NCBI GenBank assembly: GCA_020846875.1 | Contig: JADLDB010000052.1 | Location: 1 to 64,000 of the forward strand | Length of the DNA: 64,000 bases | Direction of reading: 5' to 3' | Source: Myxococcales bacterium | GTDB taxonomy: Bacteria > Myxococcota > Myxococcia > Myxococcales > Myxococcaceae | The notes under the pieces: model-generated | Databases searched by the model: none | Told to the model about the DNA's origin: nothing | Seen by the model: only the letters and a program-made list of their open reading frames with translations | Program-made: the position numbers and the translations under genes | Shown here: positions 56,441 to 56,750 of the stretch, piece after piece | How the letters are laid out: each line of letters begins with the position of its first letter | How positions within the stretch are numbered: position 1 is the stretch's first letter

Positions 56441-56501
56441 GCTGAGCCGGGCGACAAGCCGAGCTGTCAGGCCCTAGTGGCCCAGGCCGTCGCCTCCCCA
56501 T

Positions 56502-56721
56502 GCTCCCGTAGCTCAAATTGGAAGAGCACCGGAAAACGGTACGACCGGCCCCCACCAGGGCACATGGCGACCTGCTACCGCGTCGAGACGAGCGGGTGTG
56601 GGTAGCAGGCACGGTTGCGGATGCACCGGGCGGGGTGTGGCGAACGTTCCGTCAGGGAAGCGCGTTGCCCGAAAGGCCTGCTTCACGCCGAGTGATGCGG
56701 GTTCGACCCCCGCCGGGAGCT
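56502..56721 (+). ncRNA. structured RNA with tRNA acceptor, D and T arms and a 165-170-nt replacement of the anticodon region
   Basis: The ends are those of a tRNA. GCTCCCG (56502-56508) pairs perfectly with CGGGAGC (56714-56720). A D arm GCTC-AAATTGGAA-GAGC (56511-56527) keeps the GG pair. A T arm GCGGG-TTCGACC-CCCGC (56697-56713) keeps the TTCRANY loop. Between D and T arms lie about 169 bases instead of 23-45, and no 7-base anticodon loop with U33 can be formed. They fold into clear hairpins: ACCG-GAAAA-CGGT (56528-56540); a perfect 9-bp stem CCTGCTACC/GGTAGCAGG (56571-56609); CGGT-TGC/GCA-CCG (about 56613-56628); and AACG-TTCC/GGAA..CGTT (about 56643-56666). No CCA is encoded and no group I intron core was seen. 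Confidence 0.7.
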
Positions 56722-56726
56722 TCTTC

Positions 56727-56750
56727 GCGACGCGCCTGTTCGGGCGTCGC
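56727..56750. terminator. hairpin between the tRNA-like RNA and the MFS gene end
   Basis: GCGACGC and GCGTCGC form a 7-bp stem, extended inside by CC/GG and outside by CTTC/GAAG across a bulge. It begins 6 bases after the tRNA-like 3' end and 30 bases before the convergent transporter's stop. No T-tract is present, so it may act with Rho or serve as a processing boundary. Confidence 0.4.

Follow-up and report, generated by a model that had tools for sequence, protein, structure and literature searches.

A candidate non-decoding RNA of the Myxococcaceae that joins tRNA-like ends to a separate inner domain

Mimicry of tRNA in bacteria is so far known from few classes of RNA, namely transfer-messenger RNA (tmRNA) and the Y RNAs. 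tmRNA (SsrA; RF00023) has a tRNA-like acceptor and T arm at its ends and a large structured domain in place of the anticodon arm. YrlA, a bacterial Y RNA (RF02553), is a non-coding, non-decoding RNA with a T arm, an acceptor-like stem, and a D arm, and competitive inhibition of an anticodon nuclease has been proposed as a role of its tRNA-like domain (PMC7790460). Here we describe an RNA gene in a 64,000-nt stretch of DNA from a Myxococcales bacterium (contig JADLDB010000052.1; "the window"). The gene lies at 56502-56721 on the forward strand (220 nt; all coordinates are positions within the window), and the ends of a tRNA flank about 169 nt that form no anticodon arm. Judging from this sequence and its relatives, we consider it fairly probable that the gene encodes a stand-alone, non-decoding RNA of the Myxococcaceae, probably induced by stress, in which a tRNA shell carries an inner domain that acts in trans.

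The RNA is closest to tmRNA in plan and to YrlA as a functional analogue, but it is a member of neither class. Unlike tmRNA, it has a true D stem but no coding tag, no G3-U70 pair, and no CCA; it is about two thirds as long and does not match RF00023, and an ordinary tmRNA coexists with it in the same genome. YrlA is permuted (the T arm comes before the D arm) and its ends are closed by a long protein-binding stem, whereas here the arms are in tRNA order and the termini are the acceptor. The score with the YrlA model is 13 bits, versus 36-37 bits for YrlA-like loci in the same family. Ordinary tRNAs (RF00005) share the acceptor, D, and T arms but not the length of 220 nt or the lack of an anticodon arm. 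Finally, bacterial tRNA genes with group I introns also have a long insertion in the anticodon region, but we recognized no intron core and no anticodon-arm exons here, and the insertion is about 147 nt. The original prediction for this locus had set the RNA apart from both tmRNA and group I introns, and both distinctions hold.

Standard tools did not assign the RNA to a known family. ARAGORN called no tRNA or tmRNA in the whole window. At Rfam's own (gathering) thresholds, nothing in the window matched (the RF00005 score was below gathering), and at relaxed thresholds the only matches were to YrlA and THF-II (13 bits each, E > 8, which is chance level). Among the relatives described below, searches at either threshold gave nothing beyond chance matches and separate YrlA-like loci, and relaxed searches with intron models had no match in the window or the relatives. 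A literature search turned up no publication on myxobacterial non-coding RNAs that resemble tRNA.

The RNA family, its shell, and its inner domain

A DNA search of 96 genomes from the same family (Myxococcaceae) identified six full relatives (in genomes G091, G094, G088, G011, G009, and G053) and one 3' remnant (in G010), all in different genomes. The full copies are 180-232 nt long and 72-95% identical. We used two covariance models: R1 for the RNA family and R2 for the inner domain. R1 scored the seven full copies at 164-254 bits, whereas no ordinary tRNA from 145 genomes of the order exceeded 42 bits, and R2, when run against 195 genomes from the phylum, found the same seven copies and no others. 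A scan of public species genomes for an 18-base motif, supplied by the hairpin GGTTGCGGATGCACC, gave 16 stretches. Six of these are the known relatives, and the other ten have R1 scores of at most 19 bits or do not appear among the R1 matches. Scanning IMG/VR for two conserved motifs gave only chance matches, with the rest of the RNA absent. The covariance models find a single copy per genome. This is a genuine, small family with one gene per genome, and in the genomes sampled it is restricted to the Myxococcaceae.

The tRNA ends are as originally described, with seven of seven acceptor pairs, four of four D-stem pairs with the GG in the loop, and five of five T-stem pairs around TTCGACC. Across the copies, the elbow elements (GG in the D loop and TTCGA in the T loop) and the acceptor are strictly kept. 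The D stem occurs in four versions (GCUC/GAGC, GCGC/GCGC, GUGC/GCAC, and GUUC/GAAC), every one of them fully paired, and the acceptor stem occurs in two, with U3-A70 in six copies and C3-G70 in the seventh. The discriminator base differs between copies (U, U, U, G, U, U, and A), which makes one fixed identity for aminoacylation less likely, and none stands out in the alignment. As originally noted, CCA is not encoded, but this says little because about 44 of the 48 ordinary tRNAs of the host genome (a crude count) do not encode it either. The lack of an anticodon arm with U33 was also borne out. In its place is hairpin A, a CCGG hairpin whose loop (12-13 nt across copies) begins with AAAA and has neither a U33 nor the usual length of 7 nt.

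In the inner domain, hairpins A and B are followed by helix P3, which leads to P4, P5, and P7. P3 is a 9-bp helix that closes the domain and abuts the T arm. Eight of its nine pairs form in the window and 7-9 form in every full copy; individual positions show as many as five types of pair. P5 is fully paired (six of six) in five copies, as GCAGGC/GCCUGC, GCGGGC/GCCUGC, GUCGGC/GCCGAC, or GAAGGC/GCCUUC; G009 has an equivalent with five of five pairs, and P5 is absent from G053. P7 has both-sided changes at three positions. Overall, three helices of the inner domain show covariation, and compensatory changes are found in the D stem, the acceptor, P3, P4, P5, and P7. None of 500 shuffles reached the observed number of paired cells, the number of both-sided changes, or the covariation score (these are counts, not probabilities), and slid controls were all lower. 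As judged from the aligned copies, selection acts on both the tRNA shell and the separate inner domain.

Compensatory substitutions in the inner stems of related genomes were what the original prediction had named as the decisive test for a new class of tRNA-like RNA, and their presence in P3, P4, P5, and P7 supports that proposal. The prediction's inner hairpins fared less evenly. There is a conserved inner fold with covariation, but the perfect 9-bp stem that was singled out (CCTGCTACC/GGTAGCAGG) is found only in the window: it is formed with the first CCTGC, and the pairing kept in the relatives, GCAGGC/GCCTGC, is formed with the second. Similarly, the GCAGG within 56571-56610 can pair with either CCTGC, so the proposed switch between two conformations is possible for the window's sequence, but the relatives back only the second pairing.

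Promoter-like element and genomic surroundings

The sequence G[TG]CAG[GC] is found at -33 to -38 upstream of each full copy (as GTCAGC in G011, as GGCAGG in G053, and otherwise as GTCAGG), and CGTC follows 15-16 nt further on. This motif has a background rate of 7.7e-5 per position, or a chance of about 5e-4 per copy. CGTC is a common -10 consensus of extracytoplasmic function (ECF) sigma factors, and the ECF41 promoter is TGTCACA-N16-CGTC (PMC3426412). The layout is alike, but the -35 element (GTCAGG) differs. Thus, in sequence, all seven copies have a -35 and a -10 element of ECF type at a fixed spacing, and the upstream element resembles an ECF sigma-factor promoter. We found no sigma-70 promoter and no intrinsic terminator near the RNA. 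Just 3' of the RNA, at 56727-56750, there is a strong hairpin without a T run (GCGACGCGCC/GGGCGTCGC), which is a possible 3' end signal in the window's genome only.

The RNA and the promoter-like element recur together at unrelated places in these genomes. For example, the homology between G091 and G094 covers the RNA and 36 nt upstream, including the promoter-like motif, and the flanks are otherwise almost wholly unrelated, which suggests that the promoter-like element and the RNA belong together. In the window, a glycosyl hydrolase-like (GHL10) gene and an MFS transporter gene flank the RNA and converge on it. The only neighborhood shared between genomes is that of G010 and G011, where G010 retains only about the 3' 75 nt of the RNA at the same site as the intact copy in G011. 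That synteny aside, no protein gene is shared among the flanks. The distance from a copy to a stop codon is often only 2-65 nt.

Table 1. Features of the RNA and of its upstream region, by position in the window.
Feature	Position	Strand	Conservation and remarks
Putative -35 element of an ECF-type promoter, GTCAGG	56466..56471	+	G[TG]CAG[GC] in 7/7 full copies
Putative -10 element, CGTC	56488..56491	+	7/7 full copies, same alignment
Acceptor stem, 5' strand, GCTCCCG	56502..56508	+	7/7 pairs in 7/7 copies; one compensatory change, U-A to C-G, in G009
D arm, GCTC / GG-containing loop / GAGC	56511..56527	+	4/4 pairs in 7/7 copies
Hairpin A, CCGG, 12-nt loop AAAACGGTACGA, CCGG	56529..56548	+	Nearly invariant, no covariation
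Hairpin B, CCC ... GGG	56550..56560	+	Invariant in 7/7 copies
Helix P3, 5' strand, CACATGGCG	56561..56569	+	Pairs with 56686-56694; both-sided changes at six pairs
P4 hairpin, CCTGC/GTGGG, inner CCGC/GCGG	56571..56602	+	One compensatory pair; 92% of cells paired
Helix P5, 5' strand, GCAGGC	56605..56610	+	Pairs with 56676-56681
Hairpin GGTTGCGGATGCACC	56613..56627	+	Nearly invariant; 7/7 copies, one C to A in G053
P7 hairpin, GGCGGGGTGT/ACGTTCCGTC	56629..56653	+	10/10 pairs in six copies; missing in G053
Hairpin GGGAAGCGCGTTGCCC	56655..56670	+	Conserved in six copies; one-sided changes only
Helix P5, 3' strand, GCCTGC (second CCTGC)	56676..56681	+	Pairs with 56605-56610
Helix P3, 3' strand, CGCCGAGTG	56686..56694	+	Covariation in the alignment of copies
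T arm, GCGGG TTCGACC CCCGC	56697..56713	+	5/5 pairs in 7/7 copies
Acceptor stem, 3' strand, CGGGAGC (56714-56720), and discriminator T (56721)	56714..56721	+	CCA not encoded

Several other elements were seen near the copies or elsewhere in these genomes. The G011 copy is followed directly on its 3' side (locus L058, 9073-9145) by a palindromic repeat, CCTCTCCCCGCCCGCGGGGAGAGG, that occurs dozens of times in Archangium-like genomes. A repeated element that also occurs elsewhere in G091 and in G090, G092, and G087 lies about 90-260 nt before the G091 copy (L055, 9858-10024). In G000 (contig C117; L109, 91-168), a 3' duplicate of tRNA-Pro(GGG) has an unrelated 5' part and is probably the scar of an integrated element.

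Alternative explanations and a proposed mechanism

The host genome has 48 ordinary tRNAs that cover all 20 amino acids, which led us to reject the idea that the RNA supplies a missing tRNA. An ordinary tmRNA scores above threshold in five of the seven genomes, including the window's own (on another contig). With a full set of tRNAs and its own tmRNA, the host does not need this RNA for decoding or for ribosome rescue.

Several observations weigh against our reading of the gene as a stand-alone RNA with a working inner domain. The gene is patchily distributed, with 8 of 96 family genomes carrying it if the remnant is counted, and there are just seven sequences, two of which are 95% alike. The shuffle counts, as stated, are not probabilities. 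In unconstrained folding, the inner domains of three relatives are at the level of shuffled sequences (z of -0.2, 0.2, and -1.3), and z for the whole window RNA is -2.3. G053 lacks P5, P7, and one hairpin, which implies that parts of the domain are dispensable, while P3 and the shell remain fully paired. Also, the RNA is known here from gene sequences alone.

Another explanation is that the RNA is a mimic, taken for a tRNA by proteins that handle tRNAs (modification enzymes, nucleases, EF-Tu, or Ro60-type proteins), for which it would be a YrlA-like decoy or carrier with the inner domain as a docking site. The strict conservation of the elbow and acceptor fits this idea, as does the nuclease inhibition suggested for YrlA. 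Also, other Myxococcaceae genomes contain permuted YrlA-like RNAs, whose T-arm/acceptor stretch is, at the four closest loci, 89-92% identical to that of the window RNA over 35-36 nt. However, the arms of our RNA are not permuted, the flanks offer no linked protein gene, and no TROVE-domain protein (PF05731) was found in the 96 family genomes, the window's own included, although a divergent candidate such as the one described next would be invisible to Pfam. Overall, we regard a mimic as unlikely.

The YrlA-like RNAs occur in six other genomes of the family (L010, at 1479-1613, and L011, L012, L013, L020, and L021), with Rfam scores of 36-37 bits for the two loci scanned and a z of -4.0. In L010, the RNA is followed by an open reading frame of at least 447 amino acids with a vWA-like motif (DKSGSM) and no Pfam match, which is possibly a divergent Ro60-type protein.

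Because tRNA ends around a large domain that replaces the anticodon arm are also the plan of tmRNA, the RNA could instead be charged and visit the ribosome as tmRNA does. We think this improbable: no tag frame is conserved, the indels that distinguish the copies do not come in threes or multiples of it, the D stem is a true one, the 3:70 pair is U-A or C-G instead of the G-U of tmRNA, the discriminator varies, and the window's genome and four others have an ordinary tmRNA.

A selfish or mobile RNA cassette, or an attachment site, with no cellular function would account for single copies in unrelated neighborhoods near stop codons and for the patchy distribution. We give this equally little credence. 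Except for one 12-nt repeat at G094, no target-site duplication is clearly above chance; we noticed no linked recombinase; the decayed copy in G010 and the intact copy at the same site in G011 look like inheritance and loss; and the strong structural constraint implies a function. Phage and plasmid records gave only scraps of the T arm, and we rejected an origin from either. For clean horizontal transfer the signals are mixed: similarity in sucC broadly agrees with similarity in the RNA, with the exception of G009, which has the most divergent RNA of the set and yet a sucC close to that of G011.

That the gene is a tRNA with an intron that is spliced out is very improbable. Introns of bacterial tRNAs do sit in this region, and ARAGORN offers splits if introns are allowed, but the amino acid that they imply (SeC, Val, Thr, Ser, or Arg) differs among relatives, and no consistent anticodon emerges. 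We found no pairing that would yield a standard anticodon arm (5-bp stem and 7-nt loop); P3, which adjoins the T arm, shows covariation inside what would be the intron; Rfam's intron models do not match; and the host's tRNA set is complete. A decaying tRNA gene that was hit by a structured insertion, as the unusual length and missing anticodon arm might suggest, can be dismissed, because the relatives carry the whole 180-232 nt RNA instead of an ordinary tRNA, because no spliced product has an anticodon arm, and because the RNA is conserved and covarying in seven genomes; the original prediction, too, had argued against simple decay.

If the RNA is indeed a stand-alone molecule with a tRNA shell, then an ECF-type sigma factor might initiate transcription a few nucleotides upstream of the acceptor, and RNase P would trim the 5' end. 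RNase Z or exonucleases, together with the CCA-adding enzyme, would finish the 3' end, as for the host's CCA-less tRNAs; given that most of the host's tRNAs do not encode CCA, the RNA should likewise acquire it if RNase P and RNase Z process it like a tRNA. The shell's elbow would shield the molecule and may be a binding site for proteins that handle tRNA. The inner domain, which has no known relatives and probably makes this a new kind of non-coding RNA, would do the actual work in trans on a partner, without decoding. We tentatively suggest, at somewhat short of even confidence, that this is a new class of non-coding RNA in bacteria: an ECF sigma factor would activate it, and it would use a full tRNA shell in its natural order as a module for the processing, stability, or delivery of an independent functional domain, without decoding.

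Culturable Pyxidicoccus caerfyrddinensis, which has a trimmed version of the RNA, makes the gene directly testable. If our reading is correct, then these bacteria add a structured RNA family that is absent from Rfam, and they have arrived at a separate solution to tRNA mimicry, with the tRNA order intact and a promoter of its own, in which the tRNA fold would be a scaffold on which other functions of RNA can be built.
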